Shown here piece by piece: positions 7,733 to 28,080 of a DNA stretch of 32,675 nt (within the stretch, counting starts at the first letter, position 1; each line of letters opens with the position of its first letter). The DNA is from Gammaproteobacteria bacterium (lineage in GTDB: Bacteria > Pseudomonadota > Gammaproteobacteria > UBA6429 > Thiohalophilaceae). The stretch covers positions 1-32,675 of the forward strand of contig JAGLTQ010000059.1 of NCBI GenBank assembly GCA_023135195.1, read 5' to 3'. The notes under the pieces were generated by a model that did no database searches, was not told where the DNA came from, and saw only the letters and a program-made list of their open reading frames with translations. The position numbers and the translations under genes are program-made.

Positions 7733-7750
7733 AATTATAAAAAAAAATAA

Positions 7751-7953: not shown

Positions 7954-8038
7954 CTCAGTTAACTGAATTTTATTTTATCGCTACAGGTGATTTTCAAAGT
8001 GAGTTAATGCTATTTATTCAAAATGGTTGGGGTGCTAG

Positions 8039-9129: not shown

Positions 9130-10608
9130 CTAAAATGTTCTTGACCATTCTTTTGGCCATCGTTCGGCGATAACTTTTGTTTGTGTATAAAATTCGATTG
9201 CGTGAGCACCTTGTGCATGAAGATCACCATAGAAACTTTCATTCCAGCCGCTGAATGGAAAGAAGGCCATTGGTGCAGCAACACCAATATTGATTCCAAT
9301 ATTACCGGCATCAACCTGATTACGAAATTTACGCGCTGCGGGGCCACTGTTTGTAAAAATACAACCCATATTGCCATATCTTCCTTTATTCACCATTGCG
9401 ATGGCTTCTTCCAATGTGTTGGCATGCATTAAGCCAAGAACAGGACCAAAGATTTCTGAGGTTGCAATATTTCCTTCCGGGTTAACGTTATCAATAACGG
9501 TTGGAGCAACAAAGTTACCTTGTTCATAATCTTTAACGGAAACGGCATGGCCACCTGCGATAACTTTTGCATTTTCAGTATGAGCATTATTTATAAACGA
9601 TTGAATACGTTCTTTACTGTCAGCATTGATAACAGGGCCAACCTGAACACCTTTATCAAAACCGGAACCGAGTACACGATTAGTAGCAGCTTCACAGATT
9701 GCTTCTGAAAATGTATTTTTAGCTTCAGCTACTGTAATAACTAATGAGTTAGCAAGGCAGCGTTGACCAGCACAACCAAAGGCACTGTCTGCAATAATTT
9801 GTGTTGTCATTTCAGGATCTGCATCGGGCATAATTACTACCGGGTTTTTAGCCCCTCCCTGTGCCTGTACACGTTTACCATTGGCCGCACCACGACTGTA
9901 AATATATTTGGCGACTTCTGATGAGCCAACAAAACTAATTGCTTTTATCTGGGGATGATCCAACATCGCGTCAACGGTTTCCTTGCCACCATTTACGAGA
10001 TTAACAATTCCTTTTGGTAAGCCAGTTTTTTCTAACAAACGTATGGCGAATACCATTGTTAAGGGGACTTTTTCAGAGGGTTTAATAATGCAGCTATTAC
10101 CACAGGCAATGGCATAAGGTAAAAACCAAAAAGGGATCATGCCAGGAAAGTTAAATGGCGTAATAATACCCACCACACCAATTGGCTGGCGGATCATATG
10201 TTCATCAATACCACGAGCGATATTTTCAAGATTACTGCCCATCAGCATTGAGGGTATACCGCAGGCGACTTCAATATTTTCAATTGCGCGTTGAAGTTCA
10301 CCTTTAGACTCTGCCAGTGTTTTTCCGCATTCAAGCGTTATTGTACGAGCGAGTTCATCGAGGTTTTCTTCGAACAATGTTTTAAGTTTAAATAAATATT
10401 GTACACGTTCAGTCGCGGGTGTATCTCTCCAGTCAATAAGCGCAGTTGATGCCGCTTCGACAGCGTGATTGATTTCGTTTTTAGTTGAAAGCGGGACTTT
10501 AGCAAGAACATCTTGATTAGCAGGGTTGATAACATCCTGAATTTCTGTGGATGTGCTTGCGATCCATTTTCCATCGATATAATTTTCAATAAGCCTGGCT
10601 TTAGTCAC
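9130..10608 (-). CDS. mmsA: CoA-acylating (methyl)malonate-semialdehyde dehydrogenase
   Basis: 492 residues, aldehyde dehydrogenase superfamily, MmsA/IolA type, which makes propionyl-CoA or acetyl-CoA from methylmalonate or malonate semialdehyde with loss of CO2. Family marks include [54 protein letters not shown], the catalytic Cys in [12 protein letters not shown] (about residue 285) and [11 protein letters not shown]. The start is GTG 10608, with AGGT 9-12 bases upstream. It lies 38 bases after a GarR/GlxR-type reductase and downstream of glcDEF. Here it may oxidise malonate semialdehyde or a related C3 aldehyde to acetyl-CoA for malate synthase, which is an inference. Valine degradation is the alternative, but no other valine genes are nearby. 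Confidence 0.85.
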
Positions 10609-10646: not shown

Positions 10647-11537
10647 TTAGTTATCTTTTTTTACGGTAATGCCGGATAACAGTTCTTGTAATTCGAGAAT
10701 GGAGATAGAATCATTTTCGCCTTTGCCCTGGCCAACGATAGCATTAAGATATTGAGTGACCTGTGAAGCACCGGGTAGTGCGATACCTAACTCATGAGCC
10801 GCTTCCATCACTATGCGCATGTCTTTATGGTGTAAACTGGATTTAAAGCCGGGTTTGAAATTTCTATCCAGCATTCGTTGGCCGTGTGATTCAAGTGCAC
10901 GACTACCTGCAAAGCCACCGAGTAATGCCTGACGTACTTTTACCGGATCAACACCTGAAGCACTGGCGAGAATATACGCTTCACCAATGGCCGCAATGGT
11001 TTGACCGATCAGAACTTGGTTACATGCTTTTGTTACCTGACCGGCACCATTGTCACCTATATGCACAATGTTTTTTCCCATAGCATTAAACAAAGGCAAT
11101 ACACGGTTAAAGATTTCTTCTTCACCACCAACCATAATAGACAGTGCGCCATCAATTGCGCCTTGCTCTCCACCTGATACAGGTGCATCTAACATGTGGC
11201 ATTCATTATCAGACAATGTTTTTGCTAAGGCTCTTGTTGCGGAAGGGGATATGGTACTCATGTCAACAACGACACTGTCTTTTTTAATACTCTTAAGGAT
11301 ACCTTCTTCACCTAAGATCACTTTTTCAACATCCTGAGTATCTGAAACACAGATAAAAATAATATCGGTATTAGCTGCAACCTCGGTTGAAGAGGAACAT
11401 GCTGTTGCGCCGGCATCAGTAAGTGGTTTCATCATTGCGGGTCGTCGTGCATACACCCACACAGAGTGACCTGAATTTAATATGTTTAGAGCCATCGGTT
11501 GGCCCATTATTCCTAATCCGATAAAACCAATTTTCAT
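10647..11537 (-). CDS. garR: Tartronate-semialdehyde reductase-like (GarR/GlxR)
   Basis: 296 residues, 3-hydroxyisobutyrate dehydrogenase superfamily. The N-terminal NAD(P) motif reads GFIGLGIMGQPMALNIL, the substrate loop reads LDAPVSGGEQGAIDGALS, and the catalytic Lys is in GAGQVTKACNQV (about residue 170). The C-terminal DRNFKPGFKSSLHHKDM closely resembles GarR of E. coli. GarR/GlxR reduces 2-hydroxy-3-oxopropionate to glycerate in glyoxylate metabolism. No glyoxylate carboligase is present in the window, so the substrate may instead be 3-hydroxypropionate, 3-hydroxyisobutyrate or L-threonate (LtnD is in the same superfamily). It lies between glcF and mmsA with short spacers, so it is co-transcribed. 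Confidence 0.82.
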   Translation of the reverse strand: MKIGFIGLGIMGQPMALNILNSGHSVWVYARRPAMMKPLTDAGATACSSSTEVAANTDIIFICVSDTQDVEKVILGEEGILKSIKKDSVVVDMSTISPSATRALAKTLSDNECHMLDAPVSGGEQGAIDGALSIMVGGEEEIFNRVLPLFNAMGKNIVHIGDNGAGQVTKACNQVLIGQTIAAIGEAYILASASGVDPVKVRQALLGGFAGSRALESHGQRMLDRNFKPGFKSSLHHKDMRIVMEAAHELGIALPGASQVTQYLNAIVGQGKGENDSISILELQELLSGITVKKDN

Positions 11538-11579: not shown

Positions 11580-12800
11580 TTAAGCTTCATCTAATAATTC
11601 AATCCAGTGTTTAACAGGAACAGTTGCTTTAGATTCGATATGTAACTGGCAACCAATATTTGCAGTGACGATGTAGTCAGGCTCACCGTTTTGTAATGAG
11701 GAAACTTTGTTTGTGAGTAGCTGTTGTGACAGTTTGGGTTGTAAGATGGAATATGTTCCCGCTGAGCCACAACAAAGGTGGCTATCAACAACGACGGTTA
11801 AAGTATAACCGGCTTGTTGTATGATTTTTTCAACCGTACCGGTAATTTGCTGGGCGTGTTGTAAAGTGCAGGGCGAATGAAAAGCCACATTTTTAATTTC
11901 GCTTGAGTTATTTGTAGATAACGTTGATAAATCTTCTTCTATTAATATTTCGCTAATGTCTTTACATAATACGCTGACCTGTTTTGCTTTTTCTGCATAA
12001 ATAGTGTCGTGTGCGAGTAGTTCAGCATACTCTTTAACCATGGCTCCGCAACCACTTGCTGTCATAACAATAGCTTCAGCGCCACCTTCAATATATGGCC
12101 ACCATGCATCAATGTTTTTACGCATTGCGGTAAGACCTTCATTATGGGCAGATAAATGATAACTTACTGCGCCACAACAACCTGCTTGTGGTGCACGAAC
12201 TAATGAGATGCCTAATCGGCTTAACACTCTTGCAGTTGCTGCATTGGTATTGGGTGATGTAGCCGGTTGTACGCAACCATCTAAAACTAACATTGTGCGT
12301 GTAGCGTTAGTGTCGGCAGGCCATTGTGTTACCGGTTTACGTTGAGGAATTTTTTTCTTCAGTGCCGAAGGTAATAATGGCGCAAAAGCCTGAGCTATTC
12401 GTAATAAAAATGTAAATGGTTTTGTGTAAGGTAATATTTTCCGTAATAGCCAACGTAATGATATTTCGGTAATGGGTCTGGGGACTTCTTTTTCAAGCAT
12501 ACCTCGTCCGATATCGAGTAGTCGTGAATAATGTACGCCAGATGGACAGGTCGTTTCACAAGAGCGACAGGTTAAACAACGATCGAGATGCTGTTGTGTT
12601 TTTCGGCTAACGTGTTGTCCTTCCAGAACTTGTTTTATAAGATAAATACGGCCACGCGGGCTATCTAGTTCATCGCCCAGTAGTTGATAGGTTGGGCAAG
12701 TGGCAGTACAAAAACCGCAATGTACACAGCTGCGAAGAATTGAATATGCTTCTTTACCGTCTGCTGTGTTTTTATATTTTTCGCTAATTGATGTTTGCAT
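11580..12800 (-). CDS. glcF: Glycolate oxidase iron-sulfur subunit
   Basis: 406 residues, the length usual for GlcF. Two 4Fe-4S motifs lie in the first 90 residues: CVHCGFCTATCPTYQ and CLTCRSCETTCPSGVHY. Two CCG-type cysteine-rich domains follow, with GCCGAVSYH at about residue 210 and HLCCGSAGTY at about residue 345. The subunit passes electrons from the GlcD/GlcE flavins towards the quinone pool at the membrane. It starts 6 bases after the glcE stop and is followed by the GarR-like gene after 42 bases. Gene order glcD-glcE-glcF is the standard one. Confidence 0.95.
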   Translation of the reverse strand: MQTSISEKYKNTADGKEAYSILRSCVHCGFCTATCPTYQLLGDELDSPRGRIYLIKQVLEGQHVSRKTQQHLDRCLTCRSCETTCPSGVHYSRLLDIGRGMLEKEVPRPITEISLRWLLRKILPYTKPFTFLLRIAQAFAPLLPSALKKKIPQRKPVTQWPADTNATRTMLVLDGCVQPATSPNTNAATARVLSRLGISLVRAPQAGCCGAVSYHLSAHNEGLTAMRKNIDAWWPYIEGGAEAIVMTASGCGAMVKEYAELLAHDTIYAEKAKQVSVLCKDISEILIEEDLSTLSTNNSSEIKNVAFHSPCTLQHAQQITGTVEKIIQQAGYTLTVVVDSHLCCGSAGTYSILQPKLSQQLLTNKVSSLQNGEPDYIVTANIGCQLHIESKATVPVKHWIELLDEA

Positions 12801-12806
12801 AATATT

Positions 12807-13874
12807 TTATAATTCTTTATACATTCGACCGGGATTAAAAATTCCTTTAGGGTCAAAGGCATTTTTAAGATTACGATGTAGTTCCATCATCTTCGGATGT
12901 AAAGGATGAAAGACTTCCTGATTATGATCACCATTTCTAAATAAACAGGCATGTCCACCAGCTTGTTGAGTGACTGCTCGAATTTTTTCTGCAGGTTCTT
13001 CACTGAGTAACCAGCGTTGTGCACCACCCCAGTCCAACATCCATTTACCTTCTAATTCCAATGGTTGAGTGAAGGGCGCTAAAGACAAGCGCCATAAAGG
13101 TAACGTTGAATCAAAGAAGGGATGTGTATGTTCATTAATTTTATGCCAAAAATTATCGTTTGCTGAAAGTTCATCTCCACCAATTTTTTGTTTTGCTGTT
13201 GCGACACTGCTTGGTGTGCCACATAAGCGTAAATAGAGACGCGAACCATCATAAAGAGCGGCTGAAATTGGGAGTGATGTTCGTGAGCGTCGTGCAATAG
13301 CATCAATTGCTGTTTGTTCGTCAATCTCTTTAATGAGTGTGATTTCTTTTTCGGTTTTAGGTAAAACTTTTAAAGAAACTTCAAGTAAAATTCCCATACT
13401 ACCTAACGCACCACACATTAAACGTGAAACATCATAACCAGCAACATTTTTCATAACCTCACCGCCAAAGTGGAGGATTTCACCTTTACCGTTAAGTAGT
13501 TTTATACCGAGTACATAGTCGCGTGCAGCTCCTGCATAAGGACGACGGTTACCGGATAAGTTGCATGCGACAGTGCCCCCCAGTGTTGCTGTATCACCAT
13601 AATGAGGGGGGTCAAAAGGTAATATCTGATTATTTTCAGCAAGTATCGTTTCTATTTCACTTAGTAAAGTGCCTCCACGTGCGGTGATGATTAATTCAGT
13701 GGGTTCATAATTAATAATACCGGAATTTCCATTAACCTCGAGTGTTTCACCAGAGGGAGTACGCCCATAGAAGGCTTTACTGTTGCCACCAATTATTTGC
13801 AAAGAATGATTATTCTCATAGGCATCAATAATATTTTTCTGCAATGTTAAAGATAGATCGGTCATGGTATTCAA
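12807..13874 (-). CDS. glcE: Glycolate oxidase FAD-binding subunit
   Basis: 355 residues, close to E. coli GlcE (350). It has a PCMH-type FAD domain with DTATLGGTVACNLSGNRRPY and VMKNVAGYDVSRLMCGALGS, both hallmarks of GlcE. The C-terminal AFDPKGIFNPGRMY is the conserved end of the FAD-linked oxidase family. It works with GlcD and GlcF to oxidise glycolate (and often D-lactate) to the 2-oxo acid. It lies 17 bases after glcD and 6 bases before glcF. Confidence 0.95.
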   Translation of the reverse strand: MNTMTDLSLTLQKNIIDAYENNHSLQIIGGNSKAFYGRTPSGETLEVNGNSGIINYEPTELIITARGGTLLSEIETILAENNQILPFDPPHYGDTATLGGTVACNLSGNRRPYAGAARDYVLGIKLLNGKGEILHFGGEVMKNVAGYDVSRLMCGALGSMGILLEVSLKVLPKTEKEITLIKEIDEQTAIDAIARRSRTSLPISAALYDGSRLYLRLCGTPSSVATAKQKIGGDELSANDNFWHKINEHTHPFFDSTLPLWRLSLAPFTQPLELEGKWMLDWGGAQRWLLSEEPAEKIRAVTQQAGGHACLFRNGDHNQEVFHPLHPKMMELHRNLKNAFDPKGIFNPGRMYKEL

Positions 13875-13891: not shown

Positions 13892-15403
13892 TTAAAAACG
13901 TTCAAGTTCAGGGAAAGGGAGTTCACTATTGTGTACATGCATGGCACCAAACTCAGCACAGCGATGTAAAGTGGGTACAGCTTTGCCTGGATTGAGTAAT
14001 CCTTTTTCATCAAATGCAGCTTTTACAGCATGGAATTGTTGTAGCTCCATAGCTTTGAATTGCACACACATTTGATCTATTTTTTCTATACCAACACCAT
14101 GCTCACCTGTAATGGTGCCGCCAACTTTTACACAAAGCTCCAGGATTTTACCGCCAAATTCTTCAGTACGTTCCAGTTCACCGGGGATATTTGCATCGTA
14201 TAAAATCAGTGGGTGAAGGTTACCATCGCCTGCATGAAATACATTTGCCACTGGCAGATCATATTCTTTTGACATGTTAGTAATACTTTTTAAAACATCC
14301 GGCAAAGACTTTCTCGGAATAGTACCATCCATACAGTAATAATCTGGCGATATACGTCCGACTGCAGGGAAAGCGGCTTTACGGCCTTTCCAGAATAGCA
14401 TGCGTTCCTGTTCATCTTTTGCCGTTCGTATTTCGCTGGCATCACTTTGAATCAGAATCTCACGAACAATTAACACATGTTCGGATACGTCTTCATTGGT
14501 TCCATCAAGTTCACAAAGTAAAATTGCAGCAGCATCAAGTGGGTAACCTGCATGTACAAAATCCTCAGCTGCTTTAATGGCCAGTGTGTCCATCATTTCC
14601 AGACCTGCTGGAATAATACCTGCTGAAATAATATTGCCGACAGCTTCACCCGCTTTTTCAATATCTTTAAATGCGGCCAGAATAACTTGTGCGCGTTGAG
14701 GAATCGCCAATAACTTTACGGTCACTTCTACAATAATGCCTAACATACCTTCAGAGCCGGTCATTAATGCAAGTAAGTCAAAGCCCGGTGAATCAAGACC
14801 ACTGCTGCCAATGGTGACAAGTTCGCCATCCATTGTAATGATTTTAAGTTGCTGGATATTATGAACAGTTAATCCATACTTAAGACAATGTACGCCACCG
14901 GAATTCTCTGCGACATTACCGCCAATGGTGCAGGCGATTTGTGAAGATGGGTCTGGTGCATAATACAAATTATATTCTGCACACGCTTCTGAGATTGCAA
15001 GGTTACGTACACCGGGTTGTACACGAGCTACTCTGTTATTCGGATCAATATCAATAATGTCTTTAAACTTAGCGAGGCTTAATAGAATCCCGTTATCTAA
15101 TGGTAAGGCTCCACCCGATAGGCCTGTTCCTGCACCACGAGCAACAACAGGTACTTCATGTTCGTAACATAATTTAATAATGGACTGAACTTGTTCAACG
15201 GTATCCGGTAAACAAACAATCATCGGTAAATGTCGATAAGCCGATAGACCATCACATTCATATGGATGTAAATCTTCTGCTTCATGTAACACAGAATCTT
15301 TTGGTAATAGTTGAAATAATTTGTTTAGCAGAGATACTTTATCGAATGACAGCTGAGTTTTCTCTGTTTTTAATAATTTTTTATGGTCATCATTAATATT
15401 CAT
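13892..15403 (-). CDS. glcD: Glycolate oxidase catalytic subunit
   Basis: 503 residues. The FAD-binding PCMH domain includes VVARGAGTGLSGGALPLDNG and CTIGGNVAENSGGVHCLKYG. The C-terminal catalytic region carries NVFHAGDGNLHPLILYD and TGEHGVGIEKI, as expected for GlcD and related D-2-hydroxyacid dehydrogenases. It is the first gene after the TRAP operon terminator, so it probably has its own promoter in the AT-rich 15404-15463 stretch, where no strong -10/-35 pair is evident. Substrate is probably glycolate given malate synthase G in the same locus; D-lactate is also likely. Confidence 0.95.
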   Translation of the reverse strand: MNINDDHKKLLKTEKTQLSFDKVSLLNKLFQLLPKDSVLHEAEDLHPYECDGLSAYRHLPMIVCLPDTVEQVQSIIKLCYEHEVPVVARGAGTGLSGGALPLDNGILLSLAKFKDIIDIDPNNRVARVQPGVRNLAISEACAEYNLYYAPDPSSQIACTIGGNVAENSGGVHCLKYGLTVHNIQQLKIITMDGELVTIGSSGLDSPGFDLLALMTGSEGMLGIIVEVTVKLLAIPQRAQVILAAFKDIEKAGEAVGNIISAGIIPAGLEMMDTLAIKAAEDFVHAGYPLDAAAILLCELDGTNEDVSEHVLIVREILIQSDASEIRTAKDEQERMLFWKGRKAAFPAVGRISPDYYCMDGTIPRKSLPDVLKSITNMSKEYDLPVANVFHAGDGNLHPLILYDANIPGELERTEEFGGKILELCVKVGGTITGEHGVGIEKIDQMCVQFKAMELQQFHAVKAAFDEKGLLNPGKAVPTLHRCAEFGAMHVHNSELPFPELERF

Positions 15404-15451: not shown

Positions 15452-15496
15452 GAAAAAAGATAAAACTCTCTACTGGATTATCCAGCAGAGAGAGTT
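15452..15496 (-). terminator. Rho-independent terminator of the TRAP operon
   Basis: On the minus strand, AACTCTCT...CTGGA pairs with TCCAG...AGAGAGTT (8-bp and 5-bp stems separated by a small internal loop, arms 15464-15477 and 15481-15496), followed by TTATCTTTTTT. It lies just after the dctM stop and before glcD, so it separates the TRAP operon from the glc unit. Confidence 0.85.
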
Positions 15497-15509: not shown

Positions 15510-17036
15510 TTAGCCATAGACCAAACCTGGTAACCAGGTAACGATTCCCGGTAAAAGAATACAAAGTATTAAGCCTACTGTTTGTAATCCCAGGAAGATC
15601 AATGCTGATCTGAATATCGTTGCCATGCTGATTTCTGGTGGACAAACTCCACGCAAGTAGAAAAGAGCATAACCAAAGGGCGGGCTGATAAATGACATCT
15701 GCATGTTCACTAAATAAAGTACACCAAACCATAAAACAACTTTATCTCCCGGAACTGGCGGTAAACCAAATAAACCATCAAAGGTTAATGATTTAATGAT
15801 GGGTACAAAGATAGGCACGGCGAGTAATAAAATACCTACCCAGTCCAGGAACATTCCCAGAACGACAAGAATAACCATCATTAAGAATAAAATGCCATAC
15901 GAAGACAACCCGGTACTAAGAATTGTTTCAGTAATGAAGTCCTGTCCACCTTGTAAGATATAAAAACCAACAAAGATTGATGCACCAAAAATAATCCACA
16001 AGACCATAGCGGAAGCTTTTGCGGTACTGGCTGAAGCATCTTGCAGACCTTTAAAAGTAAAACGTTTATGTAACATGGCGACAAGGATAGCGCCAAAGGA
16101 ACCTATTCCCGCTGCTTCGACCGGTGTAGCGATACCACCAAAAAGTAGACCTAAAACGGTAAAGACTAACAGTAAAGGTGCAATTAACTGGCGTAATAAG
16201 AGTAGTTTCTCGATTAAAGTGAGACGTTCTTCTTCCGGAATGGCCGGGCCTAATGATGGGTCTCTCCATGAGCGAAATAATATATAGGCAACGTACATAC
16301 TGGATAACATTATTCCTGGCACGATTGAGCCCAGATAAAGTTCACCAACAGATTGTTGTGCAACGACCGCATAAAGAATTGCAAGAATAGAAGGCGGAAT
16401 TAAGATACCCAATGTACCACCAGCCATAATCGAGCCTAATGCAATTTCATGATTGTAGCCACGCTTTAACATAGCAGGTAATGCGATGATTCCCATGGTA
16501 ACAATAGCGGCACCGATAACACCGACCATTGCTGCAAGAATGGTTGATGCCAGAATAGTTGCAGCAGCAAGACCACCATTGAGTCCGCCCATCCATTTGT
16601 AGACAACATCAAACATTTCTTCAATTAAGCCAGCACGCTCCAGCATTGAAGCCATGAATATAAACAAAGGTATGGCAGCCAGATCTGAGTTGGTCATCAT
16701 CGGGAAAATACGACTAGGAATGATGTTTAACATGGTCTGGTCACCGACCAGGTAAATGAAAACAACACCCAACCCACCTGTGACAAAGGCAAGCGGCAGT
16801 CCCATCATTAGTGCAACAAATAAGGTACCAAACATTAGCCAGGTTAAATCACTGATATGCACATCTTCCAGCATTCCGGCAGTACTGAACAGGAAGTTTT
16901 CCTCTTCATAAGGATCGTAAAATAGAATATTAATCAACTCGACAAGAACAACAAAGCTCAAGCTCGCTGTTGCGAGAATCATTAACCACGTCCAAAATTG
17001 ACTTGACGAGATTTTTGTATACTTAAAAGAATTCAT
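15510..17036 (-). CDS. dctM: TRAP transporter large permease subunit (DctM)
   Basis: 508 residues with many hydrophobic segments. This is the longer DctM type (about 500 rather than 430 residues) that pairs with large DctQ subunits. Family features include LAAIPLFIFMASMLERAGL, VGVIGAAIVTMGIIALPAML, GGTLGILIPPSI and the C-terminal MSFISPPFGYALFYLRG. It forms the sodium-driven channel with DctQ and receives ligand from DctP. The ATG follows the dctQ stop directly, with GAGGAG about 10 bases upstream inside the end of dctQ. Confidence 0.93.
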   Translation of the reverse strand: MNSFKYTKISSSQFWTWLMILATASLSFVVLVELINILFYDPYEEENFLFSTAGMLEDVHISDLTWLMFGTLFVALMMGLPLAFVTGGLGVVFIYLVGDQTMLNIIPSRIFPMMTNSDLAAIPLFIFMASMLERAGLIEEMFDVVYKWMGGLNGGLAAATILASTILAAMVGVIGAAIVTMGIIALPAMLKRGYNHEIALGSIMAGGTLGILIPPSILAILYAVVAQQSVGELYLGSIVPGIMLSSMYVAYILFRSWRDPSLGPAIPEEERLTLIEKLLLLRQLIAPLLLVFTVLGLLFGGIATPVEAAGIGSFGAILVAMLHKRFTFKGLQDASASTAKASAMVLWIIFGASIFVGFYILQGGQDFITETILSTGLSSYGILFLMMVILVVLGMFLDWVGILLLAVPIFVPIIKSLTFDGLFGLPPVPGDKVVLWFGVLYLVNMQMSFISPPFGYALFYLRGVCPPEISMATIFRSALIFLGLQTVGLILCILLPGIVTWLPGLVYG

Positions 17037-17735
17037 TTATTTTTTCTCCTCGCCCAAAAGACGGAACAACATAATATCTTTAATGAGTTTAGAGATGCCG
17101 GCGAGTGTGAGTAAAATCGCACCGGTGAACATCAGTAATTTAACCGGCCAGTACTGGATACCCCAGGTTTCCAGTGTGATTTCATTCATTCCATATGAAC
17201 TTACGAAGAACGTCCATGACGTCCCCATCAGTGCCAAAACAAAAATAAAGAAAAATACAGAGGTAAAAATATCCATACCGGCACGGCCACGTGGCGGTAA
17301 CTTCACATACAGAATATCAACGCGAACATGAGCACCATGCAACATCGCATAAGCGCCCGTCATAAGGTATTGCATGCCAAATAACAAGAAAGAGGCTTCA
17401 TGAACCCATATGGTTGGCATATTAAATATATAACGCATTACTACTTCATAAAAATAAAAGACCACGGCATTAACAGTCCATAAAGCAATAAAGATACCGG
17501 TGAAATCACTGACTTTATCAATAAATTTAGTGACGCGGTTGCCTTTTACATGAAGTGCAGGGTCTTCTTCAGCTAAAATGTCAAGCGCAAGCTCTTCATC
17601 TGGAGTAAGGATTGGTTCTTTTTCACTGGTTGCTTTGCGTTTAACCATATACATAAACACTAACGGCATAATCGTAAGCCAACCCCAGTATGCCCAGTGT
17701 GGCAGGACGAAACCGAAGCCTTGTAAATCATTCAT
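17037..17735 (-). CDS. dctQ: TRAP transporter small permease subunit (DctQ)
   Basis: 232 residues, at the long end for DctQ. Membrane segments occur at about residues 14-30, 80-100, 120-140, 160-180 and 205-222. The short motif RVDILYVKLPPRGRAGMD matches the conserved DctQ loop. An acidic insert (LTPDEELALDILAEEDPAL) lies between the first two segments. It is joined end-to-start with dctM, so they are made as a pair. Confidence 0.9.
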   Translation of the reverse strand: MNDLQGFGFVLPHWAYWGWLTIMPLVFMYMVKRKATSEKEPILTPDEELALDILAEEDPALHVKGNRVTKFIDKVSDFTGIFIALWTVNAVVFYFYEVVMRYIFNMPTIWVHEASFLLFGMQYLMTGAYAMLHGAHVRVDILYVKLPPRGRAGMDIFTSVFFFIFVLALMGTSWTFFVSSYGMNEITLETWGIQYWPVKLLMFTGAILLTLAGISKLIKDIMLFRLLGEEKK

Positions 17736-17822: not shown

Positions 17823-18965
17823 TTATTTAAGTTTATAACCTTTGATATCTTCTTTGGTTACATAACCCATGATGTCATTTTGCATATAGTCAAGTTGCAG
17901 TTTGAAAACACGTTTCGCATCTACATTTTTGTTTGCCCATTTGAACCAGATAGGAATAGCCGCACGACGGAACTTAGCCACATCTTCTGTACTTAAACGA
18001 GAAACCTTACTGCCTGATTTTTTGAACTTCTCAAGGGCTTCAACATTACGCTTCTGAATAGCAGTGTAATGCTCAAGTGAGTAAGCTTTAACTTGCTCTT
18101 CAACCAGTGCTTGTAATTCAGGAGATAGACGATCCCATGCGCGTTGGTTTACTGTTAGATCCATCAAATCTACAGGTTGATAAATAGACATCATGCCTGG
18201 AGGTCCAAACAAAATATTTTTAGTTACCTGACCAAAACCAAGATCCCAGTTTACGGCAGGACCTACATAATCTGCCGCATCAATCGTGCCTTTTTCCAGC
18301 GCAGGGAAAATATCTGAGCCTGGTAAACTAACAGTACTGGCACCGAATGATTGGAACACTTCAGAAACCATGCCACCTGGTACTCGTAGTTTCAAACCTT
18401 TAAAATCAGCTAAGCTTTTAACGGGTTTTTTAGAGTGAATGATATTAGCGTCATGATGAATAGGGCCGACATACACAAGGCCTTGTTTCGCGTAAATTTC
18501 ACGTGCCATTTCCAACATACCTAAGCTGTAGAACATAGTGTCCCATTGTGCTGGTTGATCAGGGCCTGCTGGGTAAGATGATAAAAATACTGAAGCTGGA
18601 ATCTTACCTGCCCAGTACAAGGTAAATGGATTCATTCCTTGTAATACACCTGTTTTTACAGCTTCAAAAAGGGCATTGTTATCTGCTGCAACTGATTTTG
18701 CAGGGAAGGCTTTAACGATTAACTGGCCATTTGATTTTTCAGCAAAACCATCGCACCATTTTTTGAATAATGTATAACCTGTCGTACCCGCATCCCACGT
18801 AGTCTGGATTTTCCATTTATGAACTTTACCTTTTGCACTAGCAATCATCGGGGCACCTAATATCGCGGTACCACCAATTGCAGCAGCAGATTTTATGAAA
18901 CTACGACGGCTAGTAGTTTTGTCCACCTTGTCAGTTACAATAGTAGGTTTTTTATTATCTTTCAT
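17823..18965 (-). CDS. dctP: TRAP substrate-binding protein, Tat-exported (DctP/TakP-like)
   Basis: 380 residues from ATG 18965, chosen because GAGGAG lies 9-14 bases upstream; the frame extends 20 codons further without support. The N-terminus has a twin-arginine motif, SRRSFIKS, followed by a hydrophobic segment and SAKG cleavage region. The mature protein has GGMVSEVFQSFGASTVSLPG, then ALEKGTIDAADYVGP, like the TakP/lactate-binding branch of TRAP proteins that bind 2-oxo or 2-hydroxy acids. This suggests a small hydroxy- or oxo-carboxylate ligand, as inference only. The gene follows the DUF1537 kinase after 144 bases and precedes dctQM. Confidence 0.92.
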   Translation of the reverse strand: MKDNKKPTIVTDKVDKTTSRRSFIKSAAAIGGTAILGAPMIASAKGKVHKWKIQTTWDAGTTGYTLFKKWCDGFAEKSNGQLIVKAFPAKSVAADNNALFEAVKTGVLQGMNPFTLYWAGKIPASVFLSSYPAGPDQPAQWDTMFYSLGMLEMAREIYAKQGLVYVGPIHHDANIIHSKKPVKSLADFKGLKLRVPGGMVSEVFQSFGASTVSLPGSDIFPALEKGTIDAADYVGPAVNWDLGFGQVTKNILFGPPGMMSIYQPVDLMDLTVNQRAWDRLSPELQALVEEQVKAYSLEHYTAIQKRNVEALEKFKKSGSKVSRLSTEDVAKFRRAAIPIWFKWANKNVDAKRVFKLQLDYMQNDIMGYVTKEDIKGYKLK

Positions 18966-19109: not shown

Positions 19110-20444
19110 TTAAGTTACAGGTTTCGTATTTTTTGATAGATATATATAAGCAGTAGCTAATGCATCTTCATCGCCAACGTTACCTGGAAAAATAACGACA
19201 GGCATATCAGGAAAACGGGGGTGATCAGCAGGACAACAGACCACCGAACAACCCGGTAATATTTGTCCAACAACACGTGAAGTGCGTAGTGATAAACCAC
19301 TACTCAAAACATCATTTGAAGTGATTCCTCCTTTACTAATGAGGTAACCCAGCGTTTCAGGTAAGTTGCGAACAACATCCATAAGAAATTCAGATACCTG
19401 TTCACCAAAGGCTAAACGCGTTTGCTGGTCTGAAAATACTTTTTCAACACGACTAGTGTAAATAACGGGGGTTAAATTTTTCGCATGTGCTTCTTCAGCA
19501 CGTTTCAATACATCTTTTAATAGTGAATCACGTTCAGTTGGAATACGCTGAACATCCACTTCCAGAGAAACGACATCATCTTGCTTGAGTAGTTGTTCCA
19601 GTTGTTGAGTTGTCTTTTTAACGTGTGATCCAACAATGATTGCACCGGCTTTACCATTACGGACATAGTTAGACATGGCCTCAGCTGCAACAGGTTGAGG
19701 AGGCAAATTGGCTAATGAGGTTAATAAACTGGCGCCGCTACGGAATAAGAAACGTTTACCTTGCCTGGTTGCTTCGGTTAATTGTAAAGAAAAATTATTT
19801 AGATCATCCTGAGTTTCACAATCCACTGCACAACAGACATTGTTTTTTAGATTTAATAAACGATCTTTGCTGTTGCCTCGTACATCGCTTAATAAAAATC
19901 GTTCAACTTGATCTGCCTTTATACGTCCAGATGTTTTTTCTTCAACATAATCAGGAAGGTAACTGTGCGAGTAACCGAATACAGAATCGTTTGCGAATTC
20001 AGTTTCGTGAACAGGTATTTCTTTTCCATCAACTACCAGATAGTGAATGCTGTCACGTGTAATACGTCCACCTTCAAAAAATGCAGGGACAAGAAAATGT
20101 GCATCAAAGGGACCAAGTTCTTCGGCAATGACATCGGTTTCAACAGGATAGTGTCCGCGTAATGTTGAATCAGAACGGCTAACCAGAATAGGGTTAATGA
20201 TATGTTCTTCCTGCTTTAGTTCATCAAGAATTTGATTGATGTTTTGACATACTTCATGAGTTATATCGGCAGCACGATTCGCATTCATACCGCGGGTATT
20301 TGTAAGAATAAAAAATAGCGGGGCAGGGTCAAGCATTGCTTCACGTAATGTCTCAACATCCCAACGGGTTAATAACAAACAGCTATGTACTGTTTGTGAG
20401 CCGGTTGGATCATCATCAAGAACAATAATTTTTGTATATTTCAT
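19110..20444 (-). CDS. Four-carbon acid sugar kinase family (DUF1537/OtnK-like)
   Basis: 444 residues. The two-domain DUF1537 architecture is clear: an N-terminal substrate domain with LDDDPTGSQTVHS and SRSDSTLRGHYPVETDV, and a C-terminal nucleotide-binding domain with GAIIVGSHVKKTTQQL and SKGGITSNDVLSSGL. Characterised relatives phosphorylate 3-oxo-tetronate, D-threonate or 3-oxo-isoapionate with ATP. The usual partners (OtnC aldolase/decarboxylase, OtnI isomerase, PdxA2 or a RuBisCO-like protein) are absent here. Instead the gene follows a phosphoketolase-like enzyme after a 99-bp gap containing a long hairpin, and precedes a TRAP transporter. The ribosome site is weak. The kinase family is secure; the substrate is not. 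Confidence 0.9.
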   Translation of the reverse strand: MKYTKIIVLDDDPTGSQTVHSCLLLTRWDVETLREAMLDPAPLFFILTNTRGMNANRAADITHEVCQNINQILDELKQEEHIINPILVSRSDSTLRGHYPVETDVIAEELGPFDAHFLVPAFFEGGRITRDSIHYLVVDGKEIPVHETEFANDSVFGYSHSYLPDYVEEKTSGRIKADQVERFLLSDVRGNSKDRLLNLKNNVCCAVDCETQDDLNNFSLQLTEATRQGKRFLFRSGASLLTSLANLPPQPVAAEAMSNYVRNGKAGAIIVGSHVKKTTQQLEQLLKQDDVVSLEVDVQRIPTERDSLLKDVLKRAEEAHAKNLTPVIYTSRVEKVFSDQQTRLAFGEQVSEFLMDVVRNLPETLGYLISKGGITSNDVLSSGLSLRTSRVVGQILPGCSVVCCPADHPRFPDMPVVIFPGNVGDEDALATAYIYLSKNTKPVT

Positions 20445-20543: not shown

Positions 20544-22763
20544 TTACTTGGTTAAATTTACTACACGATCAGCCATTGCATCAGGTGTAATACCGTTGAA
20601 CTCCATAACTTCAGTTGGCGAAGCAGTGGTTTCACCTCGTTTCCAACAGAAAGTGTCACGTTTGTTTGCGCGTGTACGTAACAATACGGGCTCTAATGGA
20701 GCACTTGGGCCACCACTCACTGCAAGTAGTACGTCAGCATCAAACAAAACATTAAAGTGATCATCATCCATAAACTTGTTATCAGGTTCTGATACCGTAT
20801 CCCAGGCAACATCAGTCGGACGATATAAACGACGAGGATTAACAACCGCTACAATACGTACGCGGTAACCTTGTGCTTCAAGTTTATCTTTCGCTTCAAA
20901 CACAGGCAGGAAGACCATGTCGCCTGTTACTGCAAAAACAACCGTGCCTTTATCACCTGCTTCACTTTCATAAATAGTTGCGGCACCTTCTTCGATGGCG
21001 TGCAGTGACTCTTCAACTGTCATGTAAACAGGCAGCGGACTTTTAGATGCAATAATCACCATGCCTTTATTGAACGAATTCGTTGCCCATTCATAAGCCA
21101 CCTGAATTGCATTCGCGTCACAAGGGAAAAGTGGGTAAACATTACCGTTACGCATCATGCCGGCGAAAAAGTTTTCAATTTCAGGACGTTGATGAGTCCA
21201 GCCATTTCGACCTTGTTCTAAAGCACCCGCAGTAAACATGGTAACGATAGAAGGTGTTTTACGACGTAACTCGGCCATAGCCTGAGTCACGGTTTGCACA
21301 ATCGGCCAGCCGTTAATAGCAAAACTCTCATACGATAACCATAAGGCACGTGAACCAAACAATGCCAGACCCGCAGCAAGACCGGCGCAGGCATCTTCAT
21401 TTAAGGGTTCATAAACCTGACCATCAGGTTCCTGGTTATAAAGTGGATCTACTGTGGGGTGACGAATTTTTAATGCATCATTGATGTTCTTCATCGCAGA
21501 GGCTTCGTTACCATCTGCATTAGTGACAATAAAACGTTTATCGGCTTGACCAACAGCCGCCACCAGGGCACCCATTGCAGTTGCAGGAACCGCCTTTTCT
21601 TCTTTATTGAATTCATTAATCGGTAACTTGCCTAATGGAGCAAGATCAAGAACATGTTCTGTTACTGATGTTTTAACAGCAGGTCCGCCGCCAGCACGAG
21701 AGAAGTTATCACGCACAATTTGCCATGCTTCAGGGTTTAACGCACGACGCTGCAGACCAGCAATAATATGCGGTTGATCTAAGGTATCCGTTGGATACAA
21801 GTTATGAGATTTAGAACCAACAGTATGTACACCCGCCCCTTTCATTTGTTTAATGATAAAAACGGTTAAGGTTCCACTCATGGCAGATTTAGCAGCTTTA
21901 TCAACACCCTCAAGAATTGCTTGTGTAAAAGCTAAACGTTTCTCATGTGAGAAATAAGTACTATCGATATAGTCGCCTTCCTGACCGGAGTCATCAAAGT
22001 CTTTAGCATCAATGAGAACAACTTCTTTAAAGCCGTGACCTTTCCAGTAATTCGTCATTTCTTCATTGGTCATACGTGAAACCATTGAATGATGTTCCTG
22101 GCTATAACCATTCCATACCAGGGTAGGCAGGAAGTTCGTTGTCTCTGGATAAGCGGTATTGAAATGCATCATCGACGAGAGGATATATGGTTCGCCCATA
22201 CCACCATCACCCATTGTGAACGGGAATAATTTTTCAGGGTGTAATAATGCACCGGCCATTGCAAAGTGTTGGCCCTGACCTAATGGACCAGCTGGGGATA
22301 AGAGGCCAGGTACTGCTCCTGACAAGTGACCAAGCAGGCCTTCACGCTCACGAAAACGTGTCTGCATATCGGAAACTGTTTTGATGCCCATTTCTTCAAG
22401 CGAGCTATCCAAAAACATCGCGCTATAGAAACCGGGTGCATGGTGCCCCACTTCGGTAACAATATTAGTATGGCCAAGCATAACTAATGCCGCATAAGCA
22501 TCCGCACTTGAGGCAAAACCACCCGGATGGCCTGAGCCTTTTGAACCACAAACTTGCAAAGTGAGATAACGTAATGCGTCTGCCATTAATTGTGATTGAT
22601 ATACAGCCTCAGGGTTTGCTGGGTCAGTGATAGCATTCTGGCCTTCAGTTATAACAGCCGTAGCGGCTTTTTCATTATATTCTGGCCATGCACTGCCATA
22701 ATGTTGGATACCTTCACAAAATGAAGGAGTGTTTTTTGTGTTTAATTCTTCTGCTGAGCTCAT
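20544..22763 (-). CDS. Phosphoketolase/transketolase-like TPP enzyme
   Basis: 739 residues from ATG 22763, chosen because AGGAG lies 10-14 bases upstream; a start 12 codons earlier has no ribosome site. The TPP motif GDG...N is present: GDGGMGEPYILSS, with the Asn of LVWNGY about 31 residues later. The N-terminal GSKGSGHPGGFASSADAYAA looks like transketolase. Other parts look like phosphoketolase: the middle LVWNGYSQEHH, then NGWTHQRPEIENF, DANAIQVAYEW and the C-terminal WKRGETTASPTEVMEFN (phosphoketolases have NGFSHQDP, PPDAN and KEEGTTTTPF). It is shorter than Xfp (about 790) and longer than transketolase (about 660). It probably cleaves a ketose- or oxo-acid phosphate into C2 units. First gene of an operon with a DUF1537 kinase and TRAP importer, divergent from iclR. 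Confidence 0.82.
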   Translation of the reverse strand: MSSAEELNTKNTPSFCEGIQHYGSAWPEYNEKAATAVITEGQNAITDPANPEAVYQSQLMADALRYLTLQVCGSKGSGHPGGFASSADAYAALVMLGHTNIVTEVGHHAPGFYSAMFLDSSLEEMGIKTVSDMQTRFREREGLLGHLSGAVPGLLSPAGPLGQGQHFAMAGALLHPEKLFPFTMGDGGMGEPYILSSMMHFNTAYPETTNFLPTLVWNGYSQEHHSMVSRMTNEEMTNYWKGHGFKEVVLIDAKDFDDSGQEGDYIDSTYFSHEKRLAFTQAILEGVDKAAKSAMSGTLTVFIIKQMKGAGVHTVGSKSHNLYPTDTLDQPHIIAGLQRRALNPEAWQIVRDNFSRAGGGPAVKTSVTEHVLDLAPLGKLPINEFNKEEKAVPATAMGALVAAVGQADKRFIVTNADGNEASAMKNINDALKIRHPTVDPLYNQEPDGQVYEPLNEDACAGLAAGLALFGSRALWLSYESFAINGWPIVQTVTQAMAELRRKTPSIVTMFTAGALEQGRNGWTHQRPEIENFFAGMMRNGNVYPLFPCDANAIQVAYEWATNSFNKGMVIIASKSPLPVYMTVEESLHAIEEGAATIYESEAGDKGTVVFAVTGDMVFLPVFEAKDKLEAQGYRVRIVAVVNPRRLYRPTDVAWDTVSEPDNKFMDDDHFNVLFDADVLLAVSGGPSAPLEPVLLRTRANKRDTFCWKRGETTASPTEVMEFNGITPDAMADRVVNLTK

Positions 22764-22860
22764 TGAGGTAATCTCCTGACAATACGATAGCAATCGCATT
22801 GAGTTAACGGTTTTATGTCATTGCTTACTGGACTGCAATAACCATAGAATAAAAAGTGAG

Positions 22861-22895: not shown

Positions 22896-22970
22896 TCCAA
22901 ATAAAGTGAACTCTAATTAAACGAGCTTGTATGGGGGTTAAGCTGGTATATCGATAGGATATGTCTTACT

Positions 22971-23005
22971 ATTTCACAGTAAGTAATCGTTTTCATAATG
23001 TGAAA
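22971..23005. promoter_or_regulatory. Double operator B, overlapping the iclR leader
   Basis: Second copy of the 35-bp double site: ATTTCACAGTAAGTAA (22971-22986) and TTTTCATAATGTGAAA (22990-23005), again 19 bp apart, and 110 bp from copy A. The second site ends one base before the ribosome site GAGG of iclR, so binding here would block iclR expression (autorepression). Confidence 0.65.
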
Positions 23006-23014
23006 GAGGCTAAA

Positions 23015-23776
23015 ATGAGTAAGACTTCTTCAATCCAGGTTATTGATCGAATGGCATTATTACTGAATATCATGGCGCAATATGATGAAGCGGTAAGTCT
23101 GAAAATTCTTTCTGCCGAAAGTGAATTACACCCATCTACGGCTTTCCGTATTCTTTCTTCATTAACCAAACATCAACTTGTTGAACGTGATGATGCCGGT
23201 TATTACCACTTAGGTATCAAATTACTTCATCTCGGAGCCCATGTTCGCCAACGTGTTGGTCTGCGTCAGCAGGCAAAACCTATTATGAGAAAACTTCGTG
23301 ATGAACTGGGTGAAACTATAAATCTGACAATAAGAGAGAATGACGAAGTTGTTTATGTTGAGCGTTCAATTAGCGGCCAGATGATGCGCGTTGAACAGGT
23401 TATTGGTAGTCGTGCCCCTCTTCATGTAACCGCTGTTGGAAAGCTTATGTTGGCAGAATCCGGCGAAGAAGGCTGTCGCAAATATGCAGAGCGAACGGGT
23501 TTACCGGCTTATACAAAAAATACTATTACGGAAATAGATACTTTAATTAGTAAAACCAGGCAGGCACACCGCAATGGTTTTGCTTATGATGATGAAGAAG
23601 CAGAAAAAGGTGTAGGCTGTATTGGTGTATTAATTTATAACAATACAGGTGAAATTGCGGGTGGCTTATCGCTTTCTGCACCGATTGAACGACGCAAAGA
23701 GGAATGGGTACCCATTGTTATAGAGGCTGGCAAACGCATATCAGAAAGCCTTGGCTACTTTGGTTATTACCAATAA
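23015..23776 (+). CDS. IclR-family transcriptional regulator
   Basis: 253 residues from ATG 23015, which has GAGG (23006-23009) at the right distance; the frame extends 18 codons upstream but only through the operator. The N-terminal winged helix-turn-helix includes VSLKILSAESELHPSTAFRI and YYHLGIKLLHLG. The C-terminal effector domain has GSRAPLHVTAVGKLML, EAEKGVGCIGVLIYN and GGLSLSAPIERR. It is divergent from the phosphoketolase-kinase-TRAP operon and flanked by a duplicated operator, so it very likely regulates that operon and itself. IclR proteins often sense small carboxylates, such as glyoxylate, pyruvate or aromatic acids. The stop codon lies inside the target duplication of a MITE-like element. 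Confidence 0.93.
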   Translation: MSKTSSIQVIDRMALLLNIMAQYDEAVSLKILSAESELHPSTAFRILSSLTKHQLVERDDAGYYHLGIKLLHLGAHVRQRVGLRQQAKPIMRKLRDELGETINLTIRENDEVVYVERSISGQMMRVEQVIGSRAPLHVTAVGKLMLAESGEEGCRKYAERTGLPAYTKNTITEIDTLISKTRQAHRNGFAYDDEEAEKGVGCIGVLIYNNTGEIAGGLSLSAPIERRKEEWVPIVIEAGKRISESLGYFGYYQ

Positions 23777-24287: not shown

Positions 24288-24944
24288 TTAACGGGGCGGT
24301 GGTGATTCTAAAATTATAATATGCAAACGTCGCGGGCCATGTGCCCCTAGTTGTATTGTTTGCTCAACATCTGCAGTACGAGATGGTCCTGTAATAAAAT
24401 TAATAGAACGTGGCATGGTTTCACCGGCTTTTCTTAATAAGTCCCATGTATCTTCCATGTAAGGATAAATTTTATTTTGCTGAATAATACAGATGTTATT
24501 ATCAGGCATAAAATTTAATGTTGTTGGACTCTCTTTACCTGAGCAAAGAACTAATGAGCCTGTTTCAGCAATACCCGCATAAGCCATAGTCAGAGTGGTA
24601 TTATCATTATCTTGTGCAGCTCTATACTCAACCGTTATTTCTTTTTGCCATTTTACTTGCTTTAATAAATCATCTGGGGCGGAAACCAGCTTTGGCTCTA
24701 TGTTGTAATAAGATATATATTTAAAAACTGCTGTTGATAAGTCAGTTATATTTTTTATTGACTCAACGGTAGCCGCAACACTTTTTGCTTTTGAAATAAA
24801 ACGTTTAACAATATTTTCAGAATAAACAGGAAGTACTCCCCGTTTGTGGGCAGATAAATATTCTTTAATCGTTGCTGTTTTTTGCTCTGTTTTAGATGAT
24901 GCTTGTTGCAAACGTGAAAATATTTCTCTACGTGAATTAGTCAT
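24288..24944 (-). CDS. lutC: L-lactate oxidation protein LutC (LUD domain)
   Basis: 218 residues, somewhat shorter than Bacillus LutC. The LUD-domain signature near the C-terminus, NFITGPSRTADVEQTIQLGA followed by HGPRRLHIII, is unmistakable. AGIAETGSLVL is the family's second marker. Together with LutA and LutB it oxidises L-lactate to pyruvate. Its start overlaps the end of lutB by 8 bases, so it is coupled. The protein ends ESPPPR immediately beside repeat copy 2, so the last residues may be repeat-derived. Confidence 0.92.
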   Translation of the reverse strand: MTNSRREIFSRLQQASSKTEQKTATIKEYLSAHKRGVLPVYSENIVKRFISKAKSVAATVESIKNITDLSTAVFKYISYYNIEPKLVSAPDDLLKQVKWQKEITVEYRAAQDNDNTTLTMAYAGIAETGSLVLCSGKESPTTLNFMPDNNICIIQQNKIYPYMEDTWDLLRKAGETMPRSINFITGPSRTADVEQTIQLGAHGPRRLHIIILESPPPR

Positions 24945-26376
24945 GTTTGCTCATCCTTTTATTTTTTTGTTGTTTTTTCCAGGCAGAAATAAAACTTTGT
25001 CCTTGAGGTGAAGGTAAGTCTCTGGATCGGGTCCATGCGCGGCTAAAAGGGATATGACGAATACTGCCCGTTGTTTTTCCTAACCAGCTAAGTAATTTAA
25101 CAAAAATATTTGTAGCTAATCTGTAAAGACGTGGATGCAGAGCAAATAAAGCCCATAGTTTTAAGGCTAAACGTGAACGTGTCGAATTGATTTTTTCTTT
25201 ATGTGCTTGTATTCGGTGTTGACGTAATAATTGCGGTAAAGGAATTGACATAGGACAAACTTCTTCACAACGCCCACAAAGTGTTGAAGCAAAAGGTAAG
25301 TGCTGGCCCTCTTTAAGTCCTTGCATTAAAGGGGTAAGAACAGAACCCATCGGCCCCGGGTATACCCAGCCGTAAGCATGTCCGCCAATCGTACTATAAA
25401 CAGGACAATGATTAAGGCAGGCACCGCAGTGTATACAGCGTAACATGTCATGAAATTTACCATTCAACATTTCGCTGCGTTTATTATCTACCAGGACGAT
25501 ATGGAAAGACTCGGGGCCATCAAGATCAGATTCATGTTTGGGGCCGTTGAAAAAAGTAGTATAAGACGTTATTTCCTGACCTGTTGCACTTCTTGCCAAT
25601 AAGCGCAGTAATACCGATGTGTCTTCCAGTGTTGGAACTACTTTTTCGATACTTGAAATTACAATATGTGTTTTAGGTAAACTTGCGGTTAAATCACCAT
25701 TACCTTCATTAGTTACAATAACAGTGGAACCGGTTTCAGCAATTAAAAAATTGGCACCGGTAATGCCGACGTCAGCCTGAATAAATTTATCTCGAAGTAC
25801 TTTACGCGCTTCATCGACAATTTCAGGAATTGTTTCAAGCTTACTTTTAAAGTTATATTTTTTGTGGTGTTCTTTAAATAGCTCCGCTATTTGTTGCTGG
25901 CTTTTGTGCACCGCTGGCGCAATGATATGACTGGGTGGCTCTTCGGCAAGCTGAATAATATATTCACCTAAATCGGTTTCTATGGTTTCAAAGCCGGCTT
26001 CTTCCAATGCTTCGTTCAAGGAGATTTCTTCCCCGACCATTGATTTACCTTTAGTGATGCTTCGGGCGTCCACATCTTTACATAGTTTTACAATAATACT
26101 TTGTGCTTCTTTTGCAGTACTGGCCCAATGGATATGGCCACCACTTTTTATCACTTGTTGTTCAAACTGTTCAAGGTAAGCGCTAAGGTTTTTTAGTGTA
26201 TGTTCTTTGATTTTATATGCATTAGTACGTAGCTCTTCAAATTCAGGTAAAGCATCAAGGGCTACCTGGCGTTTATTAATAAAGCCATTTTTTGCATTTT
26301 GTAATGCTTTTTGTAAAGTGGTATCGGCTAATGCTTCAACCGCATTTTTTTTGAAATTACAGGATGTGGATTTCAT
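24937..26376 (-). CDS. lutB: L-lactate oxidation iron-sulfur protein LutB
   Basis: 479 residues, close to Bacillus LutB (476). The N-terminal LUD domain has GITGANFLIAETGSTVIVTN and KTHIVISSIEKVVPTLED. It is followed by two 4Fe-4S motifs, CIHCGACLNHCPVY and CGRCEEVCPMSIPLPQLL, and a basic C-terminal tail (KKQQKNKRMSK). It transfers electrons in the LutABC complex. Start and stop overlap its neighbours: TAATG shared with lutA and an 8-base overlap with lutC. Confidence 0.95.
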   Translation of the reverse strand: MKSTSCNFKKNAVEALADTTLQKALQNAKNGFINKRQVALDALPEFEELRTNAYKIKEHTLKNLSAYLEQFEQQVIKSGGHIHWASTAKEAQSIIVKLCKDVDARSITKGKSMVGEEISLNEALEEAGFETIETDLGEYIIQLAEEPPSHIIAPAVHKSQQQIAELFKEHHKKYNFKSKLETIPEIVDEARKVLRDKFIQADVGITGANFLIAETGSTVIVTNEGNGDLTASLPKTHIVISSIEKVVPTLEDTSVLLRLLARSATGQEITSYTTFFNGPKHESDLDGPESFHIVLVDNKRSEMLNGKFHDMLRCIHCGACLNHCPVYSTIGGHAYGWVYPGPMGSVLTPLMQGLKEGQHLPFASTLCGRCEEVCPMSIPLPQLLRQHRIQAHKEKINSTRSRLALKLWALFALHPRLYRLATNIFVKLLSWLGKTTGSIRHIPFSRAWTRSRDLPSPQGQSFISAWKKQQKNKRMSKHD

Positions 26377-27997: not shown

Positions 27998-28080
27998 ATT
28001 TCATAATAAGCTACATTGTGTCTGGATACTTATGTAGTAAATGTTATGTCATCGGCCTAAAAAAATTTGAGGTTAATATT

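Follow-up and report, generated by a model that had tools for sequence, protein, structure and literature searches.

A TTHA0766-type TRAP transporter encoded between a conserved transketolase-like enzyme-kinase module and glycolate dehydrogenase genes, a probable importer of glycolate and/or L-lactate

The window, by which we mean the whole 32,675-nucleotide stretch of gammaproteobacterial DNA that was analyzed, carries the genes for a TRAP transporter (dctPQM) together with those for a transketolase-like enzyme, a kinase, a glycolate dehydrogenase, L-lactate oxidation, and a malate synthase. The features assigned were as follows.

8230-9123, minus strand: methyltransferase-like gene (weak), at the end of the run
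9130-10608, minus strand: dehydrogenase of the CoA-acylating (methyl)malonate-semialdehyde dehydrogenase family (TIGR01722, 560.7; cutoff, 448.5)
10647-11537, minus strand: tartronate-semialdehyde reductase (TSR)-type dehydrogenase (TIGR01505, 342.3; cutoff, 340.75)
11580-12800, minus strand: GlcF (665.7 bits; cutoff, 333)
12807-13874, minus strand: GlcE (500.2 bits; cutoff, 284)
13892-15403, minus strand: GlcD, glycolate dehydrogenase subunit (870.7 bits, just under the cutoff of 897)
15466-15492, minus strand: terminator-like hairpin between dctM and glcD (consensus match)
15510-17036, minus strand: DctM, large permease (Pfam PF06808; TIGR00786 above cutoff)
17037-17735, minus strand: DctQ, small permease (Pfam PF04290)
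17823-18965, minus strand: DctP, TRAP solute-binding protein of the TTHA0766 (Ca-lactate) type with a Tat signal (sequence search, models, fold)
19110-20444, minus strand: DUF1537 acid-sugar-type kinase, DDDPTGSQ subgroup (Pfam SBD_N and NBD_C)
20544-22799, minus strand: TKL, a ThDP enzyme related to phosphoketolase and transketolase
22961-23776, plus strand: IclR-family regulator, divergent (best NCBIfam match BhcR, below cutoff)
24288-27161, minus strand: lutCBA, L-lactate oxidation genes (lutC, 24288-24944; lutB, 24937-26376; lutA, 26376-27161)
27278-27997, plus strand: 2-oxopentenoate-hydratase/FAH-like gene beside malate synthase G
28018-30261, plus strand: malate synthase G (over cutoff)

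The same-strand run reads TKL, kinase, DctP, DctQ, DctM, GlcD, GlcE, GlcF, TSR-type reductase, semialdehyde dehydrogenase, and methyltransferase-like gene. With the starts used, its intergenic gaps are at most 144 bases, the distance between the kinase gene and dctP; TKL and the kinase gene are 99 bases apart. This arrangement bears out the original prediction, made from the sequence alone, that dctP is grouped with the kinase and a phosphoketolase-like enzyme. The glc genes had been taken to lie apart from the transporter locus, and glcDEF are in fact within the dctP run. Terminator-like matches were no more common than expected by chance (15 observed; shuffle mean, 12.1; standard deviation, 3.4), so the hairpin between dctM and glcD is only a hint, and the run could be transcribed as a single unit or as several. 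A 70% relative of the methyltransferase-like gene stands directly after dctM in another locus (L156). The TSR-type reductase scored 187.4 against the L-threonate dehydrogenase model, below its cutoff of 350. Beyond the IclR gene lie lutABC (5 kb away), the FAH-family gene, and malate synthase G. LutB passes TIGR00273, and LutA matches part of the LdhH model with a score below the cutoff; the reading frame at 24288-24944 had no NCBIfam match and was taken to be lutC from its position.

The minus-strand translation of 17823-18965 is an intact 380-amino-acid protein that contains, as originally quoted, the regions GGMVSEVFQSFGAST and ALEKGTIDAADYVGP; an alternative upstream start at 19025 is also open and would give 400 amino acids. 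DctP scored 157 bits against the Pfam DctP model and 94.5 bits against NCBIfam TRAP_S1 (cutoff, 50). Because dctP, dctQ, and dctM are adjacent and their products all exceed Pfam gathering scores, the three encode a TRAP transporter. The Tat signal that had been proposed was recovered by the NCBIfam Tat-signal model (19.5; cutoff, 16.7) and by an RR motif, TSRRSFIK, at the N terminus. A search of annotated plasmids with DctP returned 12 records, the best being a Sinorhizobium plasmid without annotation (51.6% identity) and the remaining 11 matching at 32 to 35% identity.

Next, we compared DctP with proteins of solved structure. The top chain was TTHA0766 (2zzv, E = 1.8e-129), followed by lactate biosensors derived from it and then by 4pe3 (E = 4.2e-43). 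TakP (2hzk) was found at E = 1.8e-20, and on this score a TakP-like 2-oxo-acid ligand was rejected. Thus, of the resemblance originally seen to TakP and lactate-binding TRAP proteins, the lactate half held and the TakP half did not. Fold comparison gave the same order, with VIA Z scores of 27.4 for 2zzv_A (271 residues, 2.5 Å), 21.0 for TakP, and 18.3 for DctPAm, which binds a sugar acid. It rests on an AlphaFold model of DctP that is of middling quality (mean pLDDT, 68.4; below 50 at residues 235 to 265), and we therefore claim no pocket geometry.

DctP and TTHA0766 have in common the motifs WDAGT, FTLYW, D-NIIHSKKP, RVPGGM, DAAD(Y/F)VGPAVN, and QPVDLMD, inside which TTHA0766 deviates with L at A173 and H at Y262 (DctP numbering). 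In two reports on TTHA0766-based biosensors, Tyr80Phe loses a hydrogen bond to lactate, Asp444Asn abolishes binding, Leu79Ile tunes affinity, and the sensor strictly needs Ca2+ (PMC8648760, PMC10611801). By our own mapping, Tyr80, Leu79, and Asp444 correspond to Y117, L116, and D232 of DctP, all kept, with the Leu79-Tyr80 run falling on the LY of FTLYW. Sequence and gene context together strongly support a small 2-hydroxy acid of the lactate/glycolate class as the predicted ligand; the residues and motifs common to TTHA0766 do not separate glycolate from lactate.

We turned to gene neighborhoods in three search sets, made up of 58 relatives, 369 genomes of the class, and 398 of the phylum, each set including the window's genome. 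Genes for GlcDEF, malate synthase A or G, or TKL lay within 8 kb of a TTHA0766-type DctP in 23 of 37 loci, compared with no glyoxylate genes near DctP in 20 control loci with other DctPs (Fisher's test, P = 1.7e-6), the controls having been hand-picked from matches of 28 to 33% identity in the 58 relatives, some on short contigs (L204, 4.4 kb), and 31 of the 37 test loci having come from the wider samples. A Lut gene was near DctP in 5 of the 37 loci and in 0 of the 20 controls. Excluded from these counts were L123 (no full DctP), L124 (no DctP), and L101 (too short a sequence), as were six loci anchored on TKL (L020, L021, L023, L064, L092, and L097), which would favor the glycolate reading by construction. 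All 23 loci with a glyoxylate context are among the 30 from the same class. Because the 37 include near-copies and congeners (the window and L122, three loci each of g129 and g291, and two each of g144 and g172), we also counted genera by hand, which gave 15 of 21 within the same class; a single genome contributed both L157 and L163. Seven of the 30 same-class loci lacked a nearby glyoxylate gene; among these, one carries a gene resembling lutC, another carries one resembling FBA, and L163 is a 4.7-kb contig. None of the genes looked for was near DctP in the 7 loci of another class.

Individual same-class loci show the same company. L176 to L179 have DctPQM, a 141-amino-acid gene, and GlcDEF in a single run, with a malate synthase G match in L176 and L177. 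We take the 141-amino-acid gene to be GlcG; the copy in L178, the sole one scanned, matched PRK09732 under the cutoff. DctPQM stand beside malate synthase A in L118 (above cutoff) and L119 (by BLAST), and L120 has DctPQM, IclR, GlcDEF, and malate synthase G together. In L170, a RuBisCO match (G078:C31:10967-11893) is about 2 kb from dctP (7648-8751). These contents indicate that, in the same-class loci, the DctP transporter goes mostly with glyoxylate-forming and glyoxylate-using enzymes. On the DctP tree, whose labeled rows include some TKL-anchored loci, the glyoxylate-context label required 8 changes, whereas shuffled labels required 11.0 on average (15 of 500 shuffles needed no more than the observed number), and it is therefore only weakly clustered; TTHA0766 itself branches outside the other 39 TTHA0766-type rows.

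The neighborhoods also bear on whether L-lactate is the physiological ligand, with DctPQM feeding LutABC and the adjacency of glcDEF being secondary. The DctP type fits this account, since eLACCO1, made from TTHA0766, has an apparent Kd of 4.1 µM for L-lactate and 120 µM for D-lactate (PMC8648760). The window carries lutABC, L174 and L175 carry both glcDEF and lutABC, and in L164 a LutC-like gene is directly upstream of dctP. However, glyoxylate-type genes accompany DctP far more often than Lut genes do in the 37 loci, and it is established biochemistry that malate synthase needs glyoxylate, which lactate oxidation does not give. We consider this account rather unlikely as a whole. Nevertheless, because lutABC is only 5 kb away and a Lut gene is near DctP in 5 of 37 loci, which count against a glycolate importer, lactate may still be the main ligand.

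We then asked how constant the genes upstream of dctP are. Searching GTDB genomes with aligned TKL sequences found 298 relatives, and the best 80 of the 298 were retained; these are 73 to 97% identical to the window's TKL (69 to 97% in the ten-row alignment A1). Among these best 80 of 298, the kinase adjoins TKL in 74 of 74 testable loci and a divergent IclR gene is present in 71 of 73. TKL, kinase, and divergent IclR are a fixed module, often followed by glcDEF. The gene after the kinase could be read in the 63 of the best 80 of 298 loci that extend at least 1.2 kb past it (3 had no kinase and 14 ended early); it encoded a glycolate dehydrogenase subunit (GlcD, GlcE, or GlcF) in 26, the binding protein of a Liv-type ABC system in 12, a TTHA0766-type DctP in 4, an aldolase resembling FBA in 3 (two of which have DctP next), TSR in 1, and some other protein in 17. 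This variety implies that the transporters are exchangeable additions. The 12 loci in which a Liv-type ABC system stands in the place of TRAP fall within the series L024 to L055, mostly Gallionella-type loci.

The genera among the best 80 of 298 TKL loci include Gallionella, Sideroxydans, Mariprofundus (with the isolate Mariprofundus ferrooxydans PV-1, L076), Thiobacillus, Sulfuriferula, Thiogranum, and Sedimenticola, alongside many further Gammaproteobacteria; we take the TKL-bearing genera to be largely iron and sulfur oxidizers. In the class sample, TKL occurred in 33 of 369 genomes, and RuBisCO, called at E = 1e-60, was found in 31 of these 33 versus 142 of 336 genomes without TKL (P = 2.7e-9), in a hand-counted table in which a few near-limit matches may be fragments or RuBisCO-like proteins. 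The two TKL-positive genomes without a RuBisCO match, G000 and G069, are both 86% complete. G000 is the window's own genome, with no RuBisCO large-subunit match; the same-genus genome G003 has one. TKL was present in 7 of 22 class genomes with a TTHA0766-type DctP versus 26 of 347 without (P = 0.0016), and RuBisCO, again counted by hand, was not significantly associated with that DctP (14/22 versus 159/347, P = 0.12). The best match of the window's IclR protein, still below cutoff, was the BhcR model NF045644 (176.7; cutoff, 350). Paracoccus BhcR is described as an IclR-type activator whose DNA binding is altered by glyoxylate (PMC11323563), and by analogy the window's regulator may respond to glyoxylate as well.

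TKL falls short of the NCBIfam phosphoketolase models (best, 109.4; cutoff, 777) and transketolase models (best, 44; cutoff, 488), and it can be aligned with solved phosphoketolases. In all 81 rows (the best 80 of 298 plus the window), H91, H119, H120, H158, H332, D198 to G200, S434, E468, N532, H536, and K586 are invariant, as is R531, which in our alignment falls on a phosphoketolase His. We take the invariant positions to be active-site residues of ketose-cleaving relatives. The invariant residues and the phosphoketolase alignment place TKL among the ThDP enzymes of the phosphoketolase/transketolase superfamily, and its conservation is strong for an enzyme without a named function.

For the kinase, the sole NCBIfam match was the D-threonate kinase model (67.6 bits; cutoff, 450); the window kinase had no match to OtnK (NF043035), for which a relative in L166 scored 590.7 (cutoff, 350). 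Foldseek returned 8 chains below E = 0.001, drawn from six entries; five of these carry DUF1537 in the title, and the sixth (3dqq) is described as a putative tRNA synthase. These fold matches do not point to a particular substrate. The DDDPTGSQ subgroup is without a close solved relative. An FBA-like class-II aldolase follows the kinase at L020:13663-14508, L064:13699-14538, and L066:13616-14488, 3 of the best 80 of 298 loci, many of which are short. It reads KIN(Y/F)FSG in place of the KINVN of the solved relatives aligned with it, and it keeps the DH and H motifs, presumably the metal site.

Since the kinase adjoins dctP, the ligand could itself be a C4 acid sugar (threonate, erythronate, or an oxo-tetronate) used by the DUF1537 kinase. 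Three loci of one genus, g129 (L166, L167, and L169), agree with this idea: DctPQM-malate synthase G faces away from IclR-OtnK-OtnC there, the IclR being 53 to 54% identical to the window type. OtnK was above cutoff in L166, the sole one scanned, and was found by BLAST in L167 and L169; OtnC was above the NCBIfam cutoff in 3 of 3 g129 genomes, the only ones among 20 genomes tested. Yet a TTHA0766-type DctP occurs in just 6 of the best 80 of 298 TKL/kinase loci, many of them short, and the nearest solved relatives of DctP are lactate binders, not sugar-acid binders. L-Threonate dehydrogenase was above cutoff in 0 of 20 genomes, the window's and the three of g129 included, and threonate catabolism by this enzyme was rejected. 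Taken together, these points make an imported C4 acid sugar very improbable.

A different possibility is that TKL and the kinase form a disguised glycerate pathway, TKL replacing glyoxylate carboligase (Gcl), the DUF1537 kinase replacing glycerate kinase, and TSR acting between them. The reductase of the run is barely above TIGR01505, and Gcl was above the TIGR01504 cutoff in 0 of 58 relatives, including the window's genome (86% complete). However, Gcl is missing from relatives without TKL too and so does not discriminate TKL genomes; the TSR-type reductase is in 10 of the best 80 of 298 TKL loci, many short; TKL retains the residues named above for ketose-cleaving relatives; and the class-II aldolase of three loci is left unexplained. 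We judge the disguised glycerate pathway unlikely.

The reading that we favor, and consider probable, is that DctPQM imports glycolate and/or L-lactate and is joined to a glycolate/phosphoglycolate salvage module. The substrate of DctPQM would be a short 2-hydroxy monocarboxylate; glycolate is the likeliest, and L-lactate may be a second ligand or the main one. It would be bound with a metal (probably Ca2+) as in TTHA0766. GlcDEF of the same run would oxidize imported glycolate to glyoxylate, as well as intracellular glycolate derived from 2-phosphoglycolate. The glyoxylate would then feed both malate synthase G and the TKL-DUF1537 kinase pair, with the IclR regulator, putatively glyoxylate sensing, controlling the pathway and the acid sugar being an internal intermediate. 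Against this reading count, besides the Lut genes, the 7 loci of another class and the 7 same-class loci without a nearby glyoxylate gene, the nonsignificant association of DctP with RuBisCO, the missing RuBisCO match in the window's genome, and the deviations of TTHA0766 inside the shared motifs. The original prediction had posed a choice between a simple glycolate/lactate locus and a new acid-sugar pathway. Because the module of TKL and kinase often includes glycolate dehydrogenase and is found mainly in RuBisCO genomes, a glycolate-type ligand and acid-sugar enzymes are compatible, and both alternatives probably describe a single glycolate salvage locus. The lactate/glycolate class of ligand thus survives from that prediction; TakP does not, and the either/or framing looks mistaken.

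The TKL residues, OtnK/OtnC in g129, and the FBA-like aldolase suggest what the module might do. TKL would move a two-carbon ketol from a Calvin cycle ketose phosphate to glyoxylate, giving 3-oxotetronate (2,4-dihydroxy-3-oxobutanoate), which the kinase would phosphorylate to the 4-phosphate. Decarboxylation would yield CO2 and DHAP, the latter reentering the Calvin cycle. Such a route would dispense with amino-group transfer, carboligase, and reductant, and DctPQM would retrieve leaked or foreign glycolate for it. That TKL and the kinase, together with a decarboxylase that is either class-II-aldolase-like or of the OtnC type, make up an undescribed phosphoglycolate salvage route of chemolithoautotrophs is a tentative possibility. 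Its weak points are that the aldolase is in 3 of the best 80 of 298 loci and that the OtnK/OtnC genomes have no TKL and are absent from the RuBisCO genomes at E = 1e-60, which leaves a gap in the OtnK/OtnC parallel, the source of 3-oxotetronate. Since OtnC was above cutoff only in g129 among the 20 genomes tested, any decarboxylase needed in TKL genomes must be another protein. Literature queries for DUF1537 with phosphoglycolate, or with transketolase and kinase, gave nothing relevant by title; "four-carbon acid sugar kinase" with glycolate gave no paper; and among the matches listed for a wider query, none has tetronate or kinase terms. In 2020, according to PMC7486775, 2-phosphoglycolate handling by CO2-fixing bacteria beyond cyanobacteria and Cupriavidus necator was largely uncharacterized, with other routes left to future work. 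Glycerate-pathway enzymes are discussed in PMC7895386 as not enriched in Calvin-cycle genomes. The regulator-TKL-kinase module supplies a concrete enzyme pair for this question. The transporter is of an already known type, comparable with the TTHA0766 biosensors, and the surrounding TKL-kinase module is the interesting part.

Among known systems, TTHA0766 of Thermus thermophilus (2zzv, 2zzw, and 2zzx) is 54 to 57% identical to DctP in structural alignments and shares an N-terminal RR motif; DctP differs in its intramotif substitutions and its lineage, and its likeness in ligand is a prediction. TakP/SmoM (2hzk and 2hzl) has the same fold and family, at 16 to 19% identity in structural alignments. 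The E. coli-type glc operon consists of glcDEFGB and the permease gene glcA. The window resembles it in GlcDEF and malate synthase G, and L176 to L179 add the GlcG-sized gene beside DctPQM; unlike E. coli, it has TRAP alongside, plus TKL, the DUF1537 kinase, and IclR. With the OtnK/OtnC 3-oxotetronate branch, the window has the DUF1537 family in common, and three relatives have OtnK/OtnC beside the same IclR type, but the window kinase lacks the NF043035 match. Finally, the glycerate pathway and malate cycle of C. necator (PMC7486775) have in common with our loci glycolate dehydrogenase, malate synthase, a TSR-type reductase, and RuBisCO-bearing relatives, whereas here Gcl is absent at its cutoff from all 58 relatives and TKL and the DUF1537 kinase are present instead.
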